A DNA stretch of 40,041 bases from BD2-11 clade cluster bacterium bin43 (lineage in GTDB: Bacteria > Gemmatimonadota > Gemmatimonadetes > Longimicrobiales > Gaopeijiaceae): positions 1-40,041 of the forward strand of contig MPMR01000033.1 in the NCBI GenBank assembly GCA_002238605.1, in the 5' to 3' direction. The translations under genes were made by a program, and so were the position numbers. Within the stretch, counting starts at the first letter, position 1; every line of letters begins with the position of its first letter. The notes beneath the pieces were generated by a model. It was not told the DNA's origin. It saw nothing but the letters and a program-made list of their open reading frames with translations, and did no database searches. Shown here piece after piece: positions 4,753 through 15,525 of the stretch.

Positions 4753-4841
4753 GACAGACTGGTATCCCGTTTCGTCGGGTACGCATCAGTACGCACCAGG
4801 ATTTGTCAGGGCACGCACCAGGAGTCGACGGAGTCCGCGCG

Positions 4842-7800
4842 ATGAGGCCCATCTTCAGCCTCGCCCCCTCAATGTTGTCGGGCGCGCTCCTGCCCTTCCG
4901 CGGGCCGGGCGCGCTGCTGCTCTCCATGCTGGGCGCGGTGCTGTTGGCCGGCCTGGGCGCGCTGCTGCCTGCCGGTCCCGCCTCCGCGCAGACCCCCGAA
5001 GAGTTCTTCGAGACCCGGGTGCGTCCGGTGCTCGCCGAGAGCTGCATGGACTGCCACGGGCGACTCCGCCGCGGGAATCTGCGCCTCAACTCCAGGGAGG
5101 CGATGCTGCGCGGGGGCGACTCCGGTCCGGCGATCATCCCCGGGGATCCGTCCGGGAGCCTGCTCATCCAGACGGTGCGCCACCAGATCGAGGGGCAGGA
5201 GATGCCTCGCGACGAAGATCCGCTCACACCGCAGCAGATCGAGGGGCTCATCGAGTGGATTCGCATGGATGCGCCCTGGCCAGCGGTGGCGGAAGGCGCT
5301 GAAGGGACGGGAGGCGCGGCGGGAGCCGCGGGGGGGCTTCTCGCCCTCGCCGACGAGGGACTCTCGCCCGGGGCCCGCCTCTTCGTCGACAAGGTGCGGC
5401 CGGTTCTCGAGCGCAGCTGCTTCTCGTGCCACACCGACGACGAACGGAGCGGTCTCCGGCTCGATTCCCGCGAGCGGATGCTCCAGGGGGGCAGCCGCGG
5501 CCCCGCGATCATCCCGGGGAACGCGGAAGAGAGCCTCATCATCGCCGCGCTCCGGCATGTGGACGATGATCTGCAGATGCCGCGCAACGCGGACCAGCTC
5601 CCCGAAGCCGAAATCGAGGGCTTCATCGACTGGATCCAGGCCGGCGCGGAGTGGGCCGAGATCACCGCGCCGCTGGCGATCCCGAGGCGGGGGGTCACGG
5701 CCGAGGAGCGCAACTTCTGGTCGTTCCGGCCGCTGGCCGATCCCGCCGTCCCCGAGGCCGCCGCCGCCGCACCCGACCCCAACCGCGCCGTATCCGGCCC
5801 CGCCGGACCCGACCTCGACGCCGCCGTTGCCGCACCCGACCCCGCCGCCGCACCGGAGCCGAACCACGCCGCCGCCGCCGCCGCACCCGCCCCCGCCGAC
5901 CGGGCCCACGACGACATCGACCGTTTCGTGCTCGCGAAGCTCGACGAGCAGGGACTCGAGCCGCTCGGGGCGGCCGATCGCCGACAGCTCCTCCGGCGCG
6001 CCACCTTCGACCTGACCGGCCTGCCCCCGACTCCCGATGAGGCCGAGGCTTTCGTCAACGACACCTCGGCGGACGCCTTCGAGAAGGTCGTCGAGCGGCT
6101 GCTGGCCTCCCCCCACTACGGCGAGCGCTGGGGGCGGCACTGGCTGGACGTGGCCCGCTTCGGCGAAGACGACACCCGCGGGCTGGCGCCGGGCGGTTCG
6201 GGACGCGAGCGGTATCCCAACGCCTACATCCAGCGCGACTGGGTGGTGGAGGCCTTCAACCGCGACATGCCCTACGACCTCTTCGTCAAGGCGCAGATCG
6301 CCGGGGACCTGCTGGAGGAGGCCGAACGCGAGCGCGCCATCCCCGCCCTGGGCTTCCTGGGCGGCGGCCCCTGGTACTACGACATCGCCGATCCCGCGGT
6401 GGCGCGCGCGGACGAGAGGCACGACCGCGTCGACGTGACCACGCGCGGCTTCCTGGGCCTCACCGTGGGTTGCGCCCGCTGCCACGACCACAAGTACGAC
6501 CCGATCGGCACGCACGACTACTACGCGCTCGCCGGCATCTTCAACAATGCCAACTATCACGAGTATCCGATCGCGGAAGAGGACGAAGCCGAGGCCTACG
6601 AGAAGGAAAAGGAGTTCATCGACGGCCTCAGGAAGAGTCTGAACGAGTACCTGAGCACCGAGGGCGACCAGCTGGCACGCGTCCTCTCGCTCCAGGTGTC
6701 GCGCTACATGATGGCCGCGTGGCAGGTCACCGGCAGGCCGCAGCTTCCGCCCGAGCAGGCCGCGTCGCAGGCCAAGGTCGACCTCGAAACGCTGCAGCGC
6801 TGGATCCGCTTCCTGGGCAAGGAGCCGAAGCACTACCCGTACCTCATCGACTGGCAGGAGATGATCGCGCGCGGGGACGCCGAGGAGGAGGAAGCCCGGG
6901 GGCTGGCCGACGCCTTCCAGCGCCTGGTGCTCGAGGTGGTCGCGGAGCAGGAGAAGCTGGAGGAGCGCAACGGCCGCATCATCGCCAAGGGCACGCCGCT
7001 CGAGGAAGTGAAGTCGACGCCGATGCCCAACGGCTTCGAGAGCTTCTTCGACCAGCACCAGCTCGAGCTCGAGACCATGGAGCGGGAGCGCTTCAACCTC
7101 TACTCGGACATCTTCCGCAGCGACCTCGACAACGAGCTGGACACCTTCTTCCCGGCGCCGGGGCTGTTCCGGTTCCGCGGATGGGGGCTGGAGCGGCAGC
7201 TCGGGCGCGTGGCGATGGACCACATCTCGGCCATGCGCGAGCGCATCGAGGAACTGGAGGAGGAGCTCCCGGACCTGCCCTTCGCGATGGGCGTGGCCGA
7301 CAAGGAGCCCGAGGACCTGACCGACATCGCGCTGCACATCCGCGGCAGCCCCACGAACCTGGGCGAAGCGGTGCCACGCGGCTTTCTGACCGTGCTGGAC
7401 GAGGAGGGCGCCGAGCCGTACACGGAGGGAAGCGGACGCCTGCAGCTCGCCGAGGCCATCGCCGGGCACCCGATCACCGCGCGCGTCGTCGTGAACCGCG
7501 TCTGGCGCTGGCACATGGGCACGGGCATCGTCGACACCCCCAGCAACTTCGGGACGATGGGCGAGCGGCCCACGAACCCCGAGCTGCTCGAGTACCTGGC
7601 TTCGCGCTTCGTCGAAGGCGGGATGTCGATCAAGCAGCTGCACCGCGACATCATGCTGTCAGCGACCTATCAGCGCGCGAGCGGCCAGCACGCGGGCAAC
7701 GAGGAGATCGACGGGGCGAACCGCTACTACTGGCGCGCGGACCGGCGCCGGCTCGACGCGGAGAGCATCCGCGACGCAATCCTCTCCGTGTCCGGCGATC

Positions 7801-8624
7801 TGGACGCGACGGTGGGAGGCCCCTCGAAGAGCCTGCGCGACGAGGAGAACAACCGCCGCACCATCTACGGGGAGGTGAGCCGCTTCCAGGTCGACGAGTT
7901 CCTGCAGACCTTCGACTTCCCGAACCCGAGCCTGTCCGCGGAGCGCCGCTACACCACCAACGTGCCGGGCCAGAGCCTGTACTTCATGAACAGCCCCTTC
8001 GTGCGCAGGCAGGCGGAGCTGTTCGTGAAGAGGCTGCTGGAGGAGACGGCTGCCGAGGAGTTGGTTGCGGAGGATGGCGGGGACGGAAGCGGTGGCGTCG
8101 GCACCGGGAACGGAGCAGGCGGCAACGGCGGTTCAGCCAACGGGCTGGCTGGTGCCGGCAACGGGAACGGGGACCACGACAACGGCGCTGCAGAGGGCGC
8201 CGTGACCGACGGTATCTCCGTCGTTTTCCGCAATCGAGAGATGATCGAGGCCGCATATCCACTGCTCTACGCACGGGACGTCACCGAGGCCGAGATCGCG
8301 GCGGGCCTGGAGTTCCTGGAGGAACGCCGTGCCGCGTTCCTGGCGGAAGAGCTGGCGAAACTCGAAGATGAGTCCGGGGATGAAGCCGAAGCGGATGCCT
8401 CGGCGGAGGAGGCGAGGGCTGGAGAGGAGGCGAGAGCTGAAGGGGATGCGAGGGCTGGAGAGGAGGCGAGAGCTGAAGAGGATGCGAGGGCTGGAGAGGA
8501 TGACGCCGCCGAGGAGGGCGCGGACCCCGAGCCCGACACACCCGAGTACCGAGCCTCCATGCAGGCGTGGGTCCAGTACGCGCGCGCCCTGTTCAGCGTC
8601 GCGGAATTCAGGTTTGTGGACTGA
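4842..8624 (+). CDS. Secreted PSCyt1/PSCyt2/PSD1 multi-domain protein (DUF1549/DUF1553)
   Basis: This 1260-residue exported protein has Planctomycete-type cytochrome architecture. A hydrophobic signal segment ends near PAGPASAQ. Two PSCyt1 repeats follow, each with a heme-binding CxxCH (CMDCH near residue 68, CFSCH near 197) and a ...GPAIIPG(D/N) block. Next come DUF1549, starting at AHDDIDRFVLAKLDEQGLEP and containing a third CxxCH (GCARCHDHKYDP), and DUF1553 (ITARVVVNRVWRWHMGTGIV, NFGTMGERPTNPELLEYLA). These pairs are thought to act in periplasmic breakdown of complex substrates, but the exact reaction is unknown. Low-complexity linkers occur after the PSCyt1 pair (Pro/Ala/Asp), near 1085-1130 (Gly/Asn) and near 1190-1230 (repeats of EARAGE type). 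I prefer the ATG at 4842, with CGGAG eight bases upstream, over the TTG at 4803. It is followed at once by the DUF1501 gene. Confidence 0.9.
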   Translation: MRPIFSLAPSMLSGALLPFRGPGALLLSMLGAVLLAGLGALLPAGPASAQTPEEFFETRVRPVLAESCMDCHGRLRRGNLRLNSREAMLRGGDSGPAIIPGDPSGSLLIQTVRHQIEGQEMPRDEDPLTPQQIEGLIEWIRMDAPWPAVAEGAEGTGGAAGAAGGLLALADEGLSPGARLFVDKVRPVLERSCFSCHTDDERSGLRLDSRERMLQGGSRGPAIIPGNAEESLIIAALRHVDDDLQMPRNADQLPEAEIEGFIDWIQAGAEWAEITAPLAIPRRGVTAEERNFWSFRPLADPAVPEAAAAAPDPNRAVSGPAGPDLDAAVAAPDPAAAPEPNHAAAAAAPAPADRAHDDIDRFVLAKLDEQGLEPLGAADRRQLLRRATFDLTGLPPTPDEAEAFVNDTSADAFEKVVERLLASPHYGERWGRHWLDVARFGEDDTRGLAPGGSGRERYPNAYIQRDWVVEAFNRDMPYDLFVKAQIAGDLLEEAERERAIPALGFLGGGPWYYDIADPAVARADERHDRVDVTTRGFLGLTVGCARCHDHKYDPIGTHDYYALAGIFNNANYHEYPIAEEDEAEAYEKEKEFIDGLRKSLNEYLSTEGDQLARVLSLQVSRYMMAAWQVTGRPQLPPEQAASQAKVDLETLQRWIRFLGKEPKHYPYLIDWQEMIARGDAEEEEARGLADAFQRLVLEVVAEQEKLEERNGRIIAKGTPLEEVKSTPMPNGFESFFDQHQLELETMERERFNLYSDIFRSDLDNELDTFFPAPGLFRFRGWGLERQLGRVAMDHISAMRERIEELEEELPDLPFAMGVADKEPEDLTDIALHIRGSPTNLGEAVPRGFLTVLDEEGAEPYTEGSGRLQLAEAIAGHPITARVVVNRVWRWHMGTGIVDTPSNFGTMGERPTNPELLEYLASRFVEGGMSIKQLHRDIMLSATYQRASGQHAGNEEIDGANRYYWRADRRRLDAESIRDAILSVSGDLDATVGGPSKSLRDEENNRRTIYGEVSRFQVDEFLQTFDFPNPSLSAERRYTTNVPGQSLYFMNSPFVRRQAELFVKRLLEETAAEELVAEDGGDGSGGVGTGNGAGGNGGSANGLAGAGNGNGDHDNGAAEGAVTDGISVVFRNREMIEAAYPLLYARDVTEAEIAAGLEFLEERRAAFLAEELAKLEDESGDEAEADASAEEARAGEEARAEGDARAGEEARAEEDARAGEDDAAEEGADPEPDTPEYRASMQAWVQYARALFSVAEFRFVD

Positions 8625-8646
8625 TATGGCAGGTTTGTGGACTGAT
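8609..8646 (+). repeat. 17-bp tandem duplication at the PSD1/DUF1501 junction
   Basis: CAGGTTTGTGGACTGAT occurs at 8609-8625 and again at 8630-8646. The first copy encodes the last residues and the stop codon of the PSD1 protein. The second supplies the sequence around the DUF1501 start codon. Confidence 0.9.
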
Positions 8647-10132
8647 GTCTGACAACCATCACGGTGACCATCAGGGCTGCGGCATGATCCACGGGGAGCC
8701 GCGCACGCGGCGCGAGGCCCTGAAGACCATGGGCGCGGGCTTCGGCATGATGGCGTTCGCGAGCCTGATGGGGACGTCGATGCTCGAGGCCTCCAGCGGG
8801 CTCGTGTCGCCGATGGGCACGCCGCTGCCCAGGCCCGATTTCGAGCCGCGCGCGAAGAACGTCATCTTCCTGTTCATGAACGGGGGCGTCTCGCAGGTCG
8901 ACACCTTCGATCCCAAGCCGGAGCTCGAGAAATATCACGGGCAGCCGCTGCCGACCGGCGAGATCAAGACCGAGCGGCGCACCGGCGCGCTCATGAAGTC
9001 GCCCTTCAGCTTCAAGCGCTACGGGGAGTCGGGGACCGCCGTCAGCGAGCTCTTCCCGCACGTGGGCGAGTGCGCGGACGACATCTGCGTGATCCGCTCG
9101 ATGCACACCGAGATCCCGAATCACGAGCCCTCGCTGCTCATGATGAACACGGGGCACATCCAGCCGGGCCGGCCCTCGCTGGGCTCGTGGCTCACGTACG
9201 GGCTGGGGACCGAGAACCGGAACCTGCCCGGATTCGTGGTGCTTTGCCCGGATCAGCCCACCGTCGTGGGCCCGCCGCTGTGGAGCAACGCCTTCCTCCC
9301 GCCCATCCACCAGGGCACCTACATCTCCGACAAGGTGCCGAGGATCGAGGACGACTTCGACCCGGAGCGCCTCATCCCCAACATCCGCGGCGAGGACATG
9401 AACGGCGACGGCCAGCGCCGCGAGGTGGACCTGATCGAGAAGCTGAACCGGCTGCACATGCAGCGCCTGGAGGAGGAGGATCCGCAGATCGAGGGCGCGA
9501 TCCAGGTGATGGAGACCGCCTACCGAATGCAGACCGAGGCCCCGGACGTGTTCGACATCCGCGGCGAAAGCGAGGCGACCCAGAAGCTGTACGGCCCGGG
9601 CAGCACCGCGCGCGGGTGCCTGATGGCGGTGCGGCTGATCGAGCGGGGCGTGCGCATCGTGCAGGTCTACTACGCGAAGGGCGATCCCTGGGATGCCCAT
9701 ACCGACATCTTCCAGCACCGCAAGAACGCCCGCGACTCCGACCAGCCCTTCGCCGCCGTGATCAAGGACCTCAAGTCACGGGGCCTGTTCGACGAGACCC
9801 TGGTGGTGTGCGGCACCGAGTTCGGGCGCACGCCCGTGCTTGAGACGGGGGGCGGGGGCGCGGGAGGCCGCGTGGTCAACGGCCGTGACCACAACCCGTT
9901 CGGCTTCAGCATCTGGCTGGCCGGCGGCGGCATCAAGGGCGGCATGACCTACGGCGCCACCGACGACTTCGGCTTCAAGGCCGTCGAGAACCCGGTCCAC
10001 ATCCACGACCTGCACGCGACCATCCTCTACCTGATGGGCATCGACCACGAGAAGCTGACCTACAACTACAGCGGTCGTGATTTTCGGCTGACGGACGTGG
10101 CCGGCGAGGTGATTCACGACATTATCGCGTGA
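8645..10132 (+). CDS. DUF1501 family exported protein (sulfatase-like fold)
   Basis: This 495-residue protein is the usual partner of PSD1-type proteins. The N-terminus carries a twin-arginine-like export signal, RTRREALKTMGAGFGMMAF. Family landmarks follow: NVIFLFMNGGVSQVDTFDPKPELEKYHG, SPFSFKRYGESG, a DDICVIRSMHTEIPNHEPS block, and near the C-terminus ETLVVCGTEFGRTP, GRDHNPFGFSIWLAGGGIKGG and HIHDLHATILYLMGID. These Asp, Glu and His clusters correspond to the alkaline-phosphatase-like metal site of the fold. The ATG at 8645 is chosen because it precedes the export signal; an in-frame upstream ATG at 8567 would lie inside the PSD1 gene. The ribosome-binding site is poor, and a tandem duplication covers this spot, so translation may depend on coupling to the upstream gene. 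It is probably co-transcribed with PSD1. Confidence 0.9.
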   Translation: MSDNHHGDHQGCGMIHGEPRTRREALKTMGAGFGMMAFASLMGTSMLEASSGLVSPMGTPLPRPDFEPRAKNVIFLFMNGGVSQVDTFDPKPELEKYHGQPLPTGEIKTERRTGALMKSPFSFKRYGESGTAVSELFPHVGECADDICVIRSMHTEIPNHEPSLLMMNTGHIQPGRPSLGSWLTYGLGTENRNLPGFVVLCPDQPTVVGPPLWSNAFLPPIHQGTYISDKVPRIEDDFDPERLIPNIRGEDMNGDGQRREVDLIEKLNRLHMQRLEEEDPQIEGAIQVMETAYRMQTEAPDVFDIRGESEATQKLYGPGSTARGCLMAVRLIERGVRIVQVYYAKGDPWDAHTDIFQHRKNARDSDQPFAAVIKDLKSRGLFDETLVVCGTEFGRTPVLETGGGGAGGRVVNGRDHNPFGFSIWLAGGGIKGGMTYGATDDFGFKAVENPVHIHDLHATILYLMGIDHEKLTYNYSGRDFRLTDVAGEVIHDIIA

Positions 10133-10591: not shown

Positions 10592-11218
10592 TTATCCGGC
10601 AATCGGGATGCGAACGGATCCGACGAGCGAGATGGTCCGGTTGCGGCCCTCCGGTGCCTCGTCGCTGGCGAAGATCTCGGTCAATCCCTCGGTGAACAGC
10701 ACCGTGACGCCGAGGGGGCCGACGATGTAGCCGGCCCCCGCGGTGATCCCGATATCGGTGTTCGTGTCGATACGCATATCGTCGCAGCTCTGCTCCCTCG
10801 ACAGGTCGACCCCCTCGACCGAGACGTCGATGGCCACGTTGCATCGCCTGTCCCGCGCAACGCTCGCGCCGGCGAGGAAATGGAAGTCGCCGCCGATCTC
10901 GAGCAGACCGCGCAGCACGAGATAGTCGATCTCGATGTTCAACTGACCGGTCGCATCGCCTTCGCTGAGCTCCGCCCCGGCGCCCTTCTCGATGTAGCCG
11001 GCTTCCACCCGCAGGCCGACCAGGTCGATCACCCGCAGGGAGAATCCTCCCGCGGCATTCCGTCCGATGCGGCTCTCCGTGGCCTCCTCATCCGTCGCGA
11101 GGCCCATGGTCGCTCCGGCTCCCAGGATCAGATCGTTGGTTCTCTGCTGTGCCTGGGTGTCGGCGGCAGGGATCGCCAGCAGCAATGCGCAGAGAACGGG
11201 TGCGAGCGGCTGGCGCAT
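10592..11218 (-). CDS. Outer-membrane beta-barrel-like protein
   Basis: Predicted exported protein of 208 residues with a signal peptide ending at ADTQA-Q. The mature part has alternating short strands and turns (LILGAGATMGLAT, GGFSLRVIDLVGLRVEAGY, INTDIGITAGAGYIVGP-like repeats) and ends with SLVGSVRIPIAG, as in small 8-stranded porin or OmpX/opacity-like barrels. Two cysteines in RRCNVAIDV and REQSCDDM could form a disulfide. The ATG at 11218 has GGGAG eight bases upstream and is better than the longer frame from 11248. It is the last gene of the minus-strand run that includes the M56 and BlaI genes, 57 bp after the lipoprotein gene. Its exact role is unknown. Confidence 0.7.
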   Translation of the reverse strand: MRQPLAPVLCALLLAIPAADTQAQQRTNDLILGAGATMGLATDEEATESRIGRNAAGGFSLRVIDLVGLRVEAGYIEKGAGAELSEGDATGQLNIEIDYLVLRGLLEIGGDFHFLAGASVARDRRCNVAIDVSVEGVDLSREQSCDDMRIDTNTDIGITAGAGYIVGPLGVTVLFTEGLTEIFASDEAPEGRNRTISLVGSVRIPIAG

Positions 11219-11275
11219 GATGGGGACTCCCTTCTCGGACGGGGTCAATGGCAGCGGCTGACCGCCGGCGATGGC

Positions 11276-11659
11276 CTACCCCGACGATGAACCGAGCTCG
11301 ACATGCACGCTGTACCAGTCGAAACTCTGACCGGAAGCGTCCAGCGTGACAGACTGCTTCGCCCCGGCCGCGAGGTCAACCCTGGGCGTCGGACCGAGTT
11401 CGGTTCCGTTGGAGAGGTGGATTTCGACGCGCACGGCAGTGACCGTCGCGCTGGTCGTGTTGGTTACGGTGCCGGTGAACCGCCGGCCTGATGCATCGTA
11501 GCTGATGACCAGGTCCACGCCGCTGCGGGTATCGGTCGCGGTCTCGTCGGCGTTCCAACGCGTACCCGACTCGCCCGGTTCGGTGGGGCTGTCGACGCAG
11601 GCGGCCACCATGGCCAGGAGGGCCAGGGTCGCTGCACGGGATGCTGTATGTCTAGTCAT
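11276..11659 (-). CDS. Lipoprotein with an FxLYD-like beta domain
   Basis: This 127-residue lipoprotein has a lipobox MVAAC. A single beta-sandwich-like domain follows: LVISYDASGRRFTGTVTNTT, VTAVRVEIHLSNGTELGPT, DLAAGAKQSVTLDA. The same domain occurs in the protein at 13298-14074 (VEVHLDNGTELGPTRRIDV), so the two are paralogues. The pattern resembles FxLYD-type domains of secreted proteins; that name is inference. The ATG at 11659 has AAGGAG at optimal spacing. The start overlaps the end of the M56 gene by 8 bp (ATGACTAG), so the two are translationally coupled. Confidence 0.75.
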   Translation of the reverse strand: MTRHTASRAATLALLAMVAACVDSPTEPGESGTRWNADETATDTRSGVDLVISYDASGRRFTGTVTNTTSATVTAVRVEIHLSNGTELGPTPRVDLAAGAKQSVTLDASGQSFDWYSVHVELGSSSG

Positions 11660-12815
11660 GAGTCTCTCCTTCATTGTTGTCGTTGTCGTTGTCGTGCTCG
11701 AGGCTCGTGGGAGACCTGTGCTCCCGCGGCTGCTCGTGTTCCCCCTGTCGCGCGCCCTCGACGGCGCGCTGGTCCTCGTGGGGCCCTTCCGGTTCGGGTG
11801 CCACCGCCGGGGCGAACAACGGGGCGAGAACCAGAACGCCCACCGCGCTCATGCGGCGCCAGGGGGACGATGGCGCCTGGGGTGAACCCTGTCCGGACAT
11901 GAGCCTCCGAACGCGCTGCTCCAGCTGTGAGCGATGCCTGCCGATGCACGGAACCGGAGTGCGCCGGTCCCTGCCGATCACCCATCCGGCCACCTCGGTC
12001 AAGCAGCTCGCCATCGCGAAACGGTCATCGACCTGACTGGCGGCCCAGTCGTCGCACAGCTCCTCGGCGGCGCATCGAATCTCGCGCGCGGCAAGCCGGA
12101 AAAGCGGCTGGAAGAAGAAGACGGCCTGGAAGACGTTCAGAACCGCCAACCGGATCGGGTCTCCGCGCAGATGGTGCGCGACTTCGTGACCGAGAAGCGC
12201 ACGGAGCTCTTCTTCGTCCAGTTCATGGAGTGCGCGCACGGGGACGCAGATCTCGCGAGCTGTCCCAACGCCCAGGGCAATGGCCGAGCCCAGGTCGTCG
12301 CTCTCGGTCAGACGAGGCACCGGTGCCAGGGACGCCCTGCGGCTGAGTGATGCCAGCGCGCCCGAGGCCCGCGGGTCCGCTACCGGCTCACGCTCGCCGA
12401 GTCGGCGCCGCAGTTTCCCCAATCGCAGGATGTAGAGGGCGAGCAAGCCCCCGGCGAACACGACCCATAGCGTGCCGGCGGAGTTCAACCAGCCCGCAGG
12501 AAGCGCAATCCCGGGGTTTTGGGCTTCTTCGCCCGATGGCGAAAAGACGGAGGCCACGCCGTCCCGATGGCCTGGTTCGCCCTGGGCGTGGCGCTCCTCG
12601 CCGGCGATGAAGGTGGGCACGGGGAGCCGCCAGACGGCGGAGCCCGACGAGGTCACGGAGTGGACCGTCGGAGTGATCAGGCTGGCGGCGAGCACCGTGT
12701 GCCAGATTGTTTCCCGCAGGCGTGCATGCGCCCCGGGGAAGAGACGCAGGCCCAGCCAGGCAACGCCGCACCACAGAGTGCTGTGGACCAGGAAGGTGAA
12801 AAGCCACGCCGTCAT
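11652..12815 (-). CDS. M56 family membrane metallopeptidase (BlaR1/MecR1-type)
   Basis: Predicted membrane zinc protease of 387 residues that senses an envelope signal and inactivates its cognate BlaI repressor. Membrane segments lie at about 4-22, 38-52, 112-130 and 325-345. The catalytic motif HEVAHH is at 210-215, with the third ligand region EELCDDWA at 251-258, which is the M56 signature. BlaR1 and MecR1 carry an extracellular penicillin-binding domain after this point; here only a short membrane anchor and a charged tail (DNDNDNNEGE) remain. The stimulus is therefore probably not a beta-lactam bound covalently. The ATG overlaps the blaI stop by 4 bp, the standard arrangement. It forms one operon with BlaI upstream and the lipoprotein downstream. 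Confidence 0.9.
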   Translation of the reverse strand: MTAWLFTFLVHSTLWCGVAWLGLRLFPGAHARLRETIWHTVLAASLITPTVHSVTSSGSAVWRLPVPTFIAGEERHAQGEPGHRDGVASVFSPSGEEAQNPGIALPAGWLNSAGTLWVVFAGGLLALYILRLGKLRRRLGEREPVADPRASGALASLSRRASLAPVPRLTESDDLGSAIALGVGTAREICVPVRALHELDEEELRALLGHEVAHHLRGDPIRLAVLNVFQAVFFFQPLFRLAAREIRCAAEELCDDWAASQVDDRFAMASCLTEVAGWVIGRDRRTPVPCIGRHRSQLEQRVRRLMSGQGSPQAPSSPWRRMSAVGVLVLAPLFAPAVAPEPEGPHEDQRAVEGARQGEHEQPREHRSPTSLEHDNDNDNNEGETHD

Positions 12816-13210
12816 TTCGATTCCCCCTTCCGGTCCCCTTTCCGCTTGCTGGACACGATCGTCTTGAGGCCCTCCAGGTCGTCCGGGTCGATCTCGCCGG
12901 ATCGGACCAGGTGGTTGACCAATGCCGTGCTGTCACCGGAGAACAACCGCGTCACCAGGCTGGCCACCATCGTCTTGCGGACATCCGCCTCGGCGATCGC
13001 GGGCCGGTACATGAACTGTCGTCCGTTCGTTCGGTGCTCCACGCATCCGTACTCCTCCAGCTTGCGCAGCATCGTCTTGATGGTCGTGACGGCGAGGCGC
13101 CGCTCTTCAAAGAGCGCCTCGTGAACCTCGATGGCCGGGGCCTCGCCGCGCTCCCAGAGCACGCGCATGATGGCGAGTTGCAGGTCTCCCAGTTGCCGCT
13201 TCCGCTTCAT
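12812..13210 (-). CDS. BlaI/MecI/CopY family transcriptional repressor
   Basis: This 132-residue winged-helix repressor is the partner of the M56 protease. Family hallmarks: QLGDLQLAIMRVLWERGEA at the N-terminus, EVHEALFEERRLAVTTIKTMLRKLEEYG (recognition helix), HRTNGRQFMYRP wing, then a C-terminal dimerisation helix region (VASLVTRLFSGDSTALVNHLV). BlaI proteins dimerise on palindromic operators and are cleaved after signalling by the M56 protease. The ATG at 13210 has GGAG eight bases upstream; the longer frame to 13273 would begin inside the operator and is rejected. The dyad at 13254-13273, 44 bp upstream, suggests autoregulation. Confidence 0.92.
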   Translation of the reverse strand: MKRKRQLGDLQLAIMRVLWERGEAPAIEVHEALFEERRLAVTTIKTMLRKLEEYGCVEHRTNGRQFMYRPAIAEADVRKTMVASLVTRLFSGDSTALVNHLVRSGEIDPDDLEGLKTIVSSKRKGDRKGESK

Positions 13211-13253
13211 CACGGGCTCTCCGTCGATATGACCGGGGACGATTACTCGGGTG

Positions 13254-13273
13254 GTTACTACCGGAGTAGTCAC
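13254..13273. promoter_or_regulatory. BlaI-type operator upstream of blaI
   Basis: GTTACTACCGGAGTAGTCAC is a near-perfect palindrome (18 of 20 positions pair) with core ACTACCGGAGTAGT at 13257-13270. Its size and position match Bla/Mec boxes. Related 14-bp cores occur upstream of the 14074 gene and of tonB. Confidence 0.75.
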
Positions 13274-13297
13274 TAACGGGTTCCTCCAACCGCTCCC

Positions 13298-14074
13298 TTA
13301 CCTGGACCTGGCCGCGAGGGCGACCTCAAACGCACGCATCTCGCCACGCAGGATCTGGAGCTGGTTGTACACCGGCCGGAAGGCGGCGCCGCGCGGGCGG
13401 GCGGTCTCGCCACCTCCGTGTTCGCCGGGCCCTTCGCGTCCGCCATGCTCGTTGGCGCCTTCGCCGCGCTCTTCGCCCCCTTCTGCTCCGCCCTCTCCCT
13501 CACCCTCCTCCCCGCCTGCGCCGTGCCCCGCCTCGATGCCGGCTTCGGGGTGACTGACCCACGCGCTGAAGTCGTTCCCGAAGGCTCCCAGTTCGACGGG
13601 CACGGTCTCGCCGGGACCGACATCGATGCGCCTCGTCGGGCCGAGTTCCGTGCCGTTGTCCAGGTGGACCTCCACGCGCACCTGCGCGAGAGGCCGTGCG
13701 GTGCTGTTCGTCACCGAGCCGACGAAGACCTGCGTCGCCGGGTCGAACTGCAGAACCAGACGAGCCCCGTTCGCGAAGAGCTTGTCCAGTTTCGTCATCT
13801 TCGACAGATACGCACCCTCGCCACCCTCGTTGCTCACGCGCCGCGCTCGTTGCGGGTCGCGGTAAACGGAGAGCCCCGCCCTCACGCGCATCTCGCGGAG
13901 GTCGGCACGGGCCTGCTTCACGAGATCGTAGAGGTTGTCCGCATTCGCACGCTCCTGCGCCGGCTGTTGCTCTTGCAAGCCGGGTGCCGGAGCTTTCTCG
14001 CCGTCCACGTGCGCGGACAGGCCGGCCCCGGCCATGCCGAGCACCATCAGGGACATCAGTGTGATCTTCATCAT
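13298..14074 (-). CDS. Secreted protein with FxLYD-like domain and Gly/Glu-rich linker
   Basis: This 258-residue protein has a signal peptide (MKITLMSLMVLGMAGAGLSA). Residues about 40-95 form a charged helical region (NLYDLVKQARADLREMRVRAG). Residues about 100-170 form a beta domain (LVLQFDPATQVFVGSVTNST, VRVEVHLDNGTELGPTRRID) that is clearly paralogous to the lipoprotein at 11276-11659. A 50-residue Gly/Glu/His low-complexity stretch (near 180-225) precedes a short C-terminal helix (YNQLQILRGEMRAFEVAL). The ATG has GGAGGAG at good spacing. Two BlaI-type boxes lie 55-84 bp upstream, so it is probably repressed by the neighbouring BlaI. Function unknown; presumably an envelope protein. Confidence 0.75.
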   Translation of the reverse strand: MMKITLMSLMVLGMAGAGLSAHVDGEKAPAPGLQEQQPAQERANADNLYDLVKQARADLREMRVRAGLSVYRDPQRARRVSNEGGEGAYLSKMTKLDKLFANGARLVLQFDPATQVFVGSVTNSTARPLAQVRVEVHLDNGTELGPTRRIDVGPGETVPVELGAFGNDFSAWVSHPEAGIEAGHGAGGEEGEGEGGAEGGEERGEGANEHGGREGPGEHGGGETARPRGAAFRPVYNQLQILRGEMRAFEVALAARSR

Positions 14075-14128
14075 CGGTCTCCTCCGGAGTTGGGTAGCGA
14101 CCCCGGGGCGACACCCGCCGCCGGTCCG

Positions 14129-14158
14129 ACTACCGCACTAGTTGACGACCGTAGTAGT
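14129..14158. promoter_or_regulatory. Tandem BlaI-type operator boxes upstream of the 14074 gene
   Basis: Two 14-bp cores, ACTACCGCACTAGT (14129-14142) and ACGACCGTAGTAGT (14145-14158), each differ from the blaI operator core ACTACCGGAGTAGT at two positions. Their starts are 16 bp apart. The placement just upstream of the 14074 gene fits repression by BlaI. Confidence 0.7.
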
Positions 14159-14344
14159 CACCACGGAGCGCGAAGGTTCCCCGATGGAGAAGGGTCAACC
14201 GGGTTACGAGGGTGCCGCGATGGGAAGGGTTACCGGGTTACGGAGGTGCAAGTCCGTGCGAAGCATGACTTGCTGACGTGAGAGCCGCCTCTCATCTTGG
14301 GAGCGCGCACAATAGTTGTCCGGCACGTGACGAGGAGACAAGGC

Positions 14345-14728
14345 ATGTCAGGGTGGTTCGGCGAGTGGTGGCCGCTGTTGGCAACGCTCCTGATCCTGGT
14401 CGTCGGTTTGAGTTGGCTGGTCCTTCGACTGGCCGGAAGCTCACACTCCGGCCGCAGGACCGCATTCGAGACGGTCTTCCGGAAGGGGATGGTGCAGCCG
14501 ATCATCACCCACATCATGGCGTGGACGTTCGCCCTGATGGCCTCCAGCCTGATCATCTTCTTTCTCTATGTGAGAGAATTTGATCGGGCCGAAGACGTTT
14601 TCTCCTACGTCGTTGCCGTGATCGGCCCCATAATCGGGTTCTGGTTCGGATCCAGAGGCCGAGAGGGCGGCACGGAGACCGGTGAGACCGGTGGCACGAC
14701 GGAGAACCGCGGTCCCTCGCAGCCGTAG
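14345..14728 (+). CDS. Small membrane protein, unknown function
   Basis: This 127-residue protein has three hydrophobic segments: residues about 8-30, 55-75 and 84-103. It ends in a Gly/Thr-rich hydrophilic tail. The ATG at 14345 has GAGGAG nine bases upstream and is preferred to the TTG at 14297. The upstream 100 bp contain a short near-duplicate (AAGGGT..CCGGGTTACG) around 14188-14240. No family recognised. Confidence 0.65.
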   Translation: MSGWFGEWWPLLATLLILVVGLSWLVLRLAGSSHSGRRTAFETVFRKGMVQPIITHIMAWTFALMASSLIIFFLYVREFDRAEDVFSYVVAVIGPIIGFWFGSRGREGGTETGETGGTTENRGPSQP

Positions 14729-14754
14729 GCCGAGTGCCGGCGCGTCCGAAGCGG

Positions 14755-15441
14755 CTACCGCGTCTGGAACATGATGGGAAGCGAGATCCACACCGGGACC
14801 ACCTTGTCCAGGTTGAGCGCCGGGGTGAACCTGAACACGTTTGCCACGCGCAACGCCGCGTCGTCGAGCGAAGCGTGTCCGGAGCTCTCCGCGACGAGGG
14901 TGTTCTGAACGATCCCTTCCTCGTCGATGAAGAAGTGCACCGTCACCCTCCCGCCGATGCCGTTGTCCCGCAGGATCGGGGGATACTCCCGCTCCAGCGC
15001 ACGCTCCACTTCACGTTGGTTGGTGAGGTCGGGACGGACAGTGTAGGGCGTGAACGACGGTGCCGCGGAGATGTCGACCGCCTCCTCGTCGGGAGGAGGA
15101 GGCAGCTCCTCGACCGGATTGTCCTCGAAGGTGGTGGGCGCGATGGTGATGTCCTCGCTGATGTCGGCCGCGGCGATCACGGGGGTCGCGGGCCGGCTGA
15201 TCGCCTGGGGCGGCGGGGGAATCTCGATCTCGGGCGGGAGTTCGATCGCCACGAGCTCCTCGGAGTCGAAGGAGACGTCCTCCGCGGTCATGCTCGGCCA
15301 GAACATGAACACCACGAAGTGAACCACGGTCGCGGCCAGAACCGATCCCCAGAACCAGGTGTCGAACGACTTCTTGAAGCGGTCGTTCGCCGTCTCCAGG
15401 GGCGCGCCTTCCTGCACCTGTACGGATTCGTTGTCGCTCAT
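14755..15441 (-). CDS. tonB: TonB family energy transducer
   Basis: This 228-residue inner-membrane protein couples the proton motive force to outer-membrane receptors, or acts as a TonB-like domain partner. One membrane anchor lies at about 31-50 (WGSVLAATVVHFVVFMF). A Pro/Glu-rich periplasmic spacer covers about 65-125 (IELPPEIEIPPPPQ, EELPPPPDEE). The C-terminal TonB domain covers about 140-225 (YPPILRDNGIGGRVTVHFFI, SSGHASLDDAALRVANVFRFTPA). ExbB and ExbD are not adjacent. The ATG has GAGGAG. A TTGACA promoter overlapped by a perfect palindrome of the BlaI-box type lies about 60 bp upstream, so expression is probably controlled by the BlaI at 12812-13210. Confidence 0.88.
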   Translation of the reverse strand: MSDNESVQVQEGAPLETANDRFKKSFDTWFWGSVLAATVVHFVVFMFWPSMTAEDVSFDSEELVAIELPPEIEIPPPPQAISRPATPVIAAADISEDITIAPTTFEDNPVEELPPPPDEEAVDISAAPSFTPYTVRPDLTNQREVERALEREYPPILRDNGIGGRVTVHFFIDEEGIVQNTLVAESSGHASLDDAALRVANVFRFTPALNLDKVVPVWISLPIMFQTR

Positions 15442-15480
15442 CGTCTCTCCTCGTCATGCGGTCGAAGAACACCAGTTGGT

Positions 15481-15525
15481 ACGATGGGGAGCAGAAACGG
15501 ATCTGTCAACTAAGTTTTTAGTTGA
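15481..15525 (-). promoter_or_regulatory. tonB promoter with overlapping palindromic operator
   Basis: On the minus strand a consensus -35 TTGACA (15504-15509) is followed after 17 bp by CATCGT (15481-15486). A perfect inverted repeat, TCAACTAA (15506-15513) and TTAGTTGA (15518-15525) with a 4-bp centre, overlaps the -35 hexamer. Its 14-bp core ACTAAGTTTTTAGT has the same ACTA-N6-TAGT form and length as the boxes at blaI and the 14074 gene. Confidence 0.7.

Follow-up and report, generated by a model that had tools for sequence, protein, structure and literature searches.

BlaI and BlaR1 form the textbook antibiotic-resistance switch. Genes for BlaI and M56 proteases also occur without a beta-lactam sensor and, to our knowledge, no role has been assigned to such pairs. 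One of them lies in the stretch of DNA analysed here (40,041 nucleotides, hereafter the window), which is contig C13 of the 4.47-Mb genome of an uncultured marine bacterium. There a blaI-M56 pair is found together with a gene for a secreted protein (gene A) and with tonB, and dyads of the form ACTA-N6-TAGT precede all three. A first-pass annotation of this DNA had read these dyads as a single regulon, in which the one BlaI would release secreted-protein and TonB genes upon an envelope signal. Which repressor owns which dyad is thus the question raised by this locus. The idea of a BlaI regulon outside antibiotic resistance held, as did the inclusion of gene A; tonB, however, most likely belongs to a second circuit. 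Comparison of operator sequences, promoter layouts and related genomes leads us to propose, with a probability of about 0.83, that two paralogous BlaI/M56 circuits meet in the window: circuit 1, that of the window BlaI (BlaI1), and circuit 2, that of a second paralogue, blaI2, to which tonB would belong.

Placement and tandem layout of the dyads

All four dyads were recovered where the first-pass annotation had placed them, including the mismatched one before gene A (Table 1). Allowing at most one mismatch, the window contains 6 matches versus a mean of 1.8 in shuffled sequence, and 2 of 100 shuffles reach 6. Counting the bare 14-mer over the whole genome was rejected as a measure of enrichment, its total being no higher than that of the reversed control (7 matches versus 14, with ~12 expected from base composition). 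It is the placement of the dyads, and not their number, that is non-random. All 7 exact ACTA-N6-TAGT sequences of the genome could be assigned to BlaI-type circuits: they are located at blaI1, gene A, tonB and blaI2 (two sites), in the promoter of a beta-propeller lipoprotein gene and in the relic of a deleted copy of the latter. Matches are thus confined to genes for BlaI/M56 and for envelope proteins, and this placement supports a real BlaI-associated motif. Across relatives, half-site columns are 0.97, 1.00 and 0.98 identical, compared to 0.70, 0.79 and 0.73 for the other upstream columns.

That blaI-M56 and gene A share an operator type, as first annotated, was borne out by the tandem dyads, 15-16 bp apart, which precede both. 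Searching 154 genomes of the order for tandem dyads gave matches in 21 of them, the reversed control yielding 3 hits in all, and the loci fetched carry the circuit-1 gene set or part thereof in 28/28 cases. The gene A pair is present in 17/17 loci compared and is also kept in G018, whose gene A has 53% identity; its second dyad has the exact form in other genera (e.g. G018 and L211-L222). Most loci retain the blaI pair, and in relatives its degenerate partner dyad has a better-formed counterpart (ATTACCGAGGTAGT or, reversed, ACTACCTCGGTAAT). Gene A and blaI are almost contiguous in G003, G010, L212 and L213, where the inner operator has disappeared; this would be expected if the gene A operator then served the whole operon.

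Relatives carrying the module are mostly Gemmatimonadota metagenome-assembled genomes (MAGs), one of which is named Candidatus Palauibacter; the order has been described (PMC10469786). In a Planctomycetota MAG (L242:3302-5384), tandem dyads of the circuit-1 form head a blaI (57% identity), an M56 gene and a gene for an FxLYD-like lipoprotein, and a Phycisphaerae contig displays the gene A-blaI order with circuit-1 tandem dyads. Since these dyads are shared across phyla, the module is old or mobile, with its operator travelling along. The L242 locus has a third, degenerate copy of the dyad 16 bp further on. Two MAG records titled Gammaproteobacteria (L207, VYDD01000109.1, and L209, JAPPJO010000165.1) carry the Gemmatimonadota cluster at ~79% identity, and these titles look wrong. 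In G105 (L316:1482-2129), an in-frame junction links the beginning of blaI to the central part of M56 and the tandem operator remains, so that the repressor was lost by deletion (or the contig is misassembled).

The tonB dyad and the blaI2 operators

The genome encodes four BlaI proteins falling into four clades within the genus. The window BlaI forms a clade of its own, and the dyad type preceding the blaI gene differs from clade to clade. These are ACTAC-N4-GTAGT in tandem pairs for the window clade, pairs of ACGAAG-N2-CTTCGT for the C7 clade and dyads of the TGTTGA-N4-TCAACA type for the C42 clade (L005, L079, L095, L096), whereas the blaI2 operators are pairs of ACTA-N6-TAGT ~38-47 bp apart, the outer dyad overlapping a TTGACA box. 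The C7 pairs have the same TTGACA overlap: in the C7-type loci (L004, L085-L094) the dyads are ~49 bp apart, the first overlapping TTGACA and the second just beyond a TACACT situated 17 nt downstream of it. Inverted repeats are conserved across genomes before both blaI1 and blaI2.

The blaI2 gene, on contig C24 (Penicillinase_R, E=1.5e-30), is followed by the gene for an M56 protease fused to two TonB C-terminal domains (L048: M56-TonB_C-TonB_C), an arrangement shared with other genera of the family. Among structures, 2g9w matches the blaI2 product best; we take it to be the BlaI of M. tuberculosis (Rv1846c). When the dyad and the TTGACA box are combined into the composite ACTA-N6-TAGTTGACA, exactly 4 matches remain in the genome, versus ~0.002 expected from base composition, and they precede tonB, blaI2, the propeller lipoprotein gene and its relic. 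In 58 genomes of the family the composite was found 15 times and its reversed control 0 times: 7 matches precede blaI2-M56-TonB, 2 M56-TonB, 3 tonB, 1 the propeller lipoprotein gene and 1 its relic, and the 15th has a secreted-protein gene on one side and, on the other, a gene of the DUF5916 family, which is also encountered beside blaI2. The 14-mer before tonB (positions 15509-15522) reads ACTAAGTTTTTAGT, and a conserved CATCGT is located ~17 nt downstream of the tonB TTGACA box. A sigma-70 consensus scan found no full promoter, and this box was called on the evidence given in Table 1. In the propeller lipoprotein relic (L051:5539-5998; G000:C5:117538-117997), the promoter with its operator, the leader peptide and the C-terminal end persist; ~1.1 kb of the middle is absent, and the tail is 81% identical in DNA sequence to the intact copy on contig C37.

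Operator matrices were built from the blaI1/gene A sites and from the blaI2 sites, the tonB sites being left out. Using flanks, all tonB and propeller-lipoprotein sites were assigned to blaI2, by 8.6-25 bits; for the tonB sites alone, the preference for blaI2 was 12-20 bits with flanks and 10-18 bits on the 14-mer core. Window-type tonB retains the operator in all orthologues inspected; within the genus, the gene occurs in 7 genomes and is preceded by the dyad in 7/7, in one of them with one mismatch. A tonB of G001 (contig C401) was left out of this count and taken as another paralogue because its upstream region reads as coding and lacks the dyad. Two genomes, G007 and G004, are devoid of blaI1. 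In G007 (98% complete) a clean loss of 2.9 kb has removed the gene A operators, gene A, blaI1, M56 and the lipoprotein gene from between neighbours at ~92% DNA identity; the barrel gene stays, as does tonB, whose dyad is perfect. In G004 (89% complete) blaI1 was not found, and this genome adds only weak support as the contig ends 1.5 kb past tonB. Judged by its sequence, its promoter layout and its phylogenetic distribution, the tonB dyad most likely belongs to blaI2.

Several observations weigh against so clean a separation. When the 14-mer core alone is scored, 1 of 19 blaI2 sites goes narrowly to the wrong class. The recognition helices are similar (LAVTTIKTML in BlaI1, LAYTTVLTVL in BlaI2) and the ACTA/TAGT half-site is common to both operator classes, so that cross-binding is possible. 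Part of the class difference could moreover reflect AT-rich promoter context. With such helices and half-sites the regulons might overlap, blaI2 providing the main tonB repressor and the window BlaI binding the tonB dyad weakly as cross-talk, and the window tonB site does reach 7 bits on the BlaI1 matrix. Genuine BlaI1 sites score far higher, at 17-28 bits, and we regard such cross-talk as unlikely. Less probable still is the regulon as first annotated, in which all four dyads are sites of the window BlaI and a signal through M56 frees blaI-M56, the secreted gene and tonB jointly. The shared half-sites are compatible with it, as is the location of tonB within ~1-5 kb of the blaI1 module in most genomes having both. 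For tonB, however, we rejected this reading on the matrix scores, on the distribution of the composite and on the deletion in G007, after which the site persists; the dyad is likewise retained in G004, and the tandem layout is never seen at tonB. A cascade from an envelope signal to secreted-protein and TonB genes is likewise hypothetical. Finally, that the dyads arose as palindromes by chance or are bound by an unrelated regulator, as the genome-wide count of the bare 14-mer would allow, is highly improbable: their positions are conserved between genera and, beside blaI in circuit 1, between phyla, composite and tandem patterns far exceed their controls, and paired dyads with GTCTAT/GACTAT half-sites are used by BlaI proteins of C. 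thermocellum (PMC8457756).

In the two-circuit reading, the blaI2 product would repress tonB. In the promoters of blaI2, tonB and the beta-propeller lipoprotein gene, the predicted circuit-2 operator overlaps the -35 box, so that a bound repressor would block RNA polymerase.

Table 1. Genes and predicted regulatory sites of the two circuits in the window.
Feature	Position	Strand	Evidence or sequence
Small outer-membrane beta-barrel protein	10592..11248	-	OMP_b-brl E=0.0018, under cut-off; synteny
Lipoprotein with FxLYD-like domain, overlaps M56 stop codon	11276..11659	-	VAAC lipobox
M56 (BlaR1-type) membrane metalloprotease, 387 amino acids	11652..12815	-	Pfam Peptidase_M56 E=1.4e-13
blaI (blaI1, circuit-1 repressor), 132 amino acids	12812..13210	-	Pfam Penicillinase_R E=1.3e-28
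Degenerate partner dyad of blaI operator, 15 bp offset	13242..13255		ATTACTCGGGTGGT
Circuit-1 operator before blaI	13257..13270		ACTACCGGAGTAGT; sole ACTAC-N4-GTAGT in genome; conserved
Gene A, secreted protein, 258 amino acids	13298..14074	-	Open reading frame; orthologues in 16 further loci
Circuit-1 operator, gene A tandem dyad 1	14129..14142		ACTACCGCACTAGT, exact ACTA-N6-TAGT
Circuit-1 operator, gene A tandem dyad 2, 16 bp offset	14145..14158		ACGACCGTAGTAGT, one mismatch
tonB (circuit 2), 228 amino acids	14755..15441	-	TonB_C E=5e-17, 62.6 bits vs cut-off 24.6
TTGACA (-35-like) box of tonB promoter, overlaps operator	15504..15509	-	Conservation and composite counts
Circuit-2 operator before tonB, perfect 8+4+8 dyad	15506..15525		TCAACTAA-GTTT-TTAGTTGA; contains the tonB 14-mer

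Gene products and a model for circuit 1

The blaI1 product matches MecI/BlaI structures in structure searches. Its start codon was placed at ATG 13210; an upstream GTG at 13273 was rejected as it is situated past the operator. The CopY/TcrY copper repressor family gave the top NCBIfam score for this protein, at 72.8 bits versus a cut-off of 121.95, and was discarded; the Cys motif is absent as well, the window BlaI containing a single Cys.

Gene A encodes a signal peptide, a helix, an FxLYD-like beta-sandwich domain (~residues 95-182), a His/Glu-rich stretch and a second helix. Its FxLYD match (NCBIfam, NF038353) is sub-threshold (E=0.0046, 16.8 bits versus a cut-off of 23), and its structure model is a beta-sandwich of low confidence (mean predicted local distance difference test score 47.5). 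The lipoprotein encoded after M56 is 42% identical to gene A, to whose domain it is paralogous, and also remains under the FxLYD cut-off (E=2.3e-4, 21 bits versus 23). The barrel gene is probably the final gene of the blaI operon. Immediately upstream of the gene A operators lies an imperfect tandem repeat (14171-14249; 34 bp, 2.2 copies), and elsewhere in the window, at 4803-10132, are genes for a planctomycete-type PSCyt1/PSCyt2/PSD1 protein and then a DUF1501 protein.

The window M56 protease has an HEVAH motif at residue 210 and at least four hydrophobic segments, and ends 47 residues past the last of these with a short His/Glu/Asp-rich tail. No penicillin-binding domain was matched in Pfam or NCBIfam, in agreement with the first-pass annotation, and the protein scores 37 bits against NCBIfam blaR1_generic, the cut-off of which is 400. 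Neither a beta-lactamase nor a resistant penicillin-binding protein was found at the dyad sites, which precede blaI-M56, FxLYD-like proteins, tonB and the propeller lipoprotein gene. Because M56 lacks the penicillin-binding domain, a role outside antibiotic resistance is likely, and the envelope genes making up the regulon agree with the non-antibiotic use of BlaI first proposed. The M56 C-terminal tail (11652-11796) and the second half of gene A (13298-13560) are both His/Glu/Asp-rich, a conserved feature that relatives and the planctomycete lipoprotein share; these stretches possibly bind metal. In G009 (L043:5695-7230), the M56 and lipoprotein genes form one reading frame of 511 amino acids. 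This fusion was set aside as evidence for a sensor domain, since it stems from the loss, in a single MAG, of a few bases that include the ribosome-binding site.

We propose that the window BlaI would repress its own operon (blaI, M56, the FxLYD-like lipoprotein gene and probably the barrel gene) as well as the adjacent gene A, in both cases through the tandem dyads. An envelope signal other than a beta-lactam would activate M56, which would then inactivate BlaI through cleavage and open both circuit-1 promoters. The domain common to the lipoprotein and gene A may point to feedback or sensing in the periplasm. One point weighs against the cleavage step: the Asn-Phe cleavage position of MecI aligns with His-Leu in BlaI1, so that BlaR1-like cleavage of BlaI1 is not certain. 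At P1' the change is a conservative one.

Related BlaI systems and what the two circuits may mean

A functional parallel for the protease is found in S. aureus, where BlaR1 cleaves BlaI directly (PMC9834060). BlaI/BlaR1 and MecI/MecR1 of that organism resemble the window system in co-encoding a BlaI-family repressor and an M56 metalloprotease with a dyad before their own operon. The window system differs from them by its lack of a penicillin-binding sensor domain, by a regulon containing envelope-protein targets and no beta-lactamase or PBP2a gene, and by His-Leu in place of Asn-Phe at the cleavage position. Another parallel is offered by BlaI_0696 and BlaI_1845 of C. thermocellum, which have very small regulons and autoregulation and bind paired inverted repeats (GTCTAT/GACTAT) accommodating four protomers, with support from DNA affinity purification sequencing and electrophoretic mobility shift assays (PMC8457756). 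Circuit 1 as predicted here is very similar to these systems. C. thermocellum is, however, a Firmicute, its systems include neither FxLYD-like secreted proteins nor TonB, and the M56 partners there are annotated as BlaR1. In M. tuberculosis, BlaI (Rv1846c) negatively regulates Rv1303, which is co-transcribed with ATP synthase genes (PMC12565901). Like the window circuits, this BlaI reaches beyond beta-lactam genes; phylum and targets are different, and the host studied here has four paralogues, each with its own operator type. Circuit 2 corresponds exactly to the arrangement in which M56 proteases fused to TonB C-terminal domains are encoded with BlaI, and no paper on the function of such fusions was found in the literature searched.

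Taking both circuits together, we tentatively consider circuit 2 as a sensor of outer-membrane transport supply, a reading to which we give less than even odds. The periplasmic TonB domains of the blaI2-associated M56 would sample TonB-dependent receptors, and their occupancy would set protease activity and the level of BlaI2, which in turn would set the amounts of TonB and of the surface lipoprotein; in parallel, the secreted FxLYD-like proteins of circuit 1 would act as output and as feedback signal to an M56 that lacks a beta-lactam sensor. If this were true, BlaI/M56 would amount to a general module for sensing at the envelope, with one periplasmic domain exchanged for another. Regulons of this kind can here be read from sequence, nearly free of false positives, and the functions they suggest are those of the envelope: TonB, a lipoprotein and secreted proteins. 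Within one genome, every paralogous BlaI protein is paired with an operator class and a promoter layout of its own. For M56 systems of Gemmatimonadota and Planctomycetota that lack a penicillin sensor, this yields lists of targets that can be tested directly.

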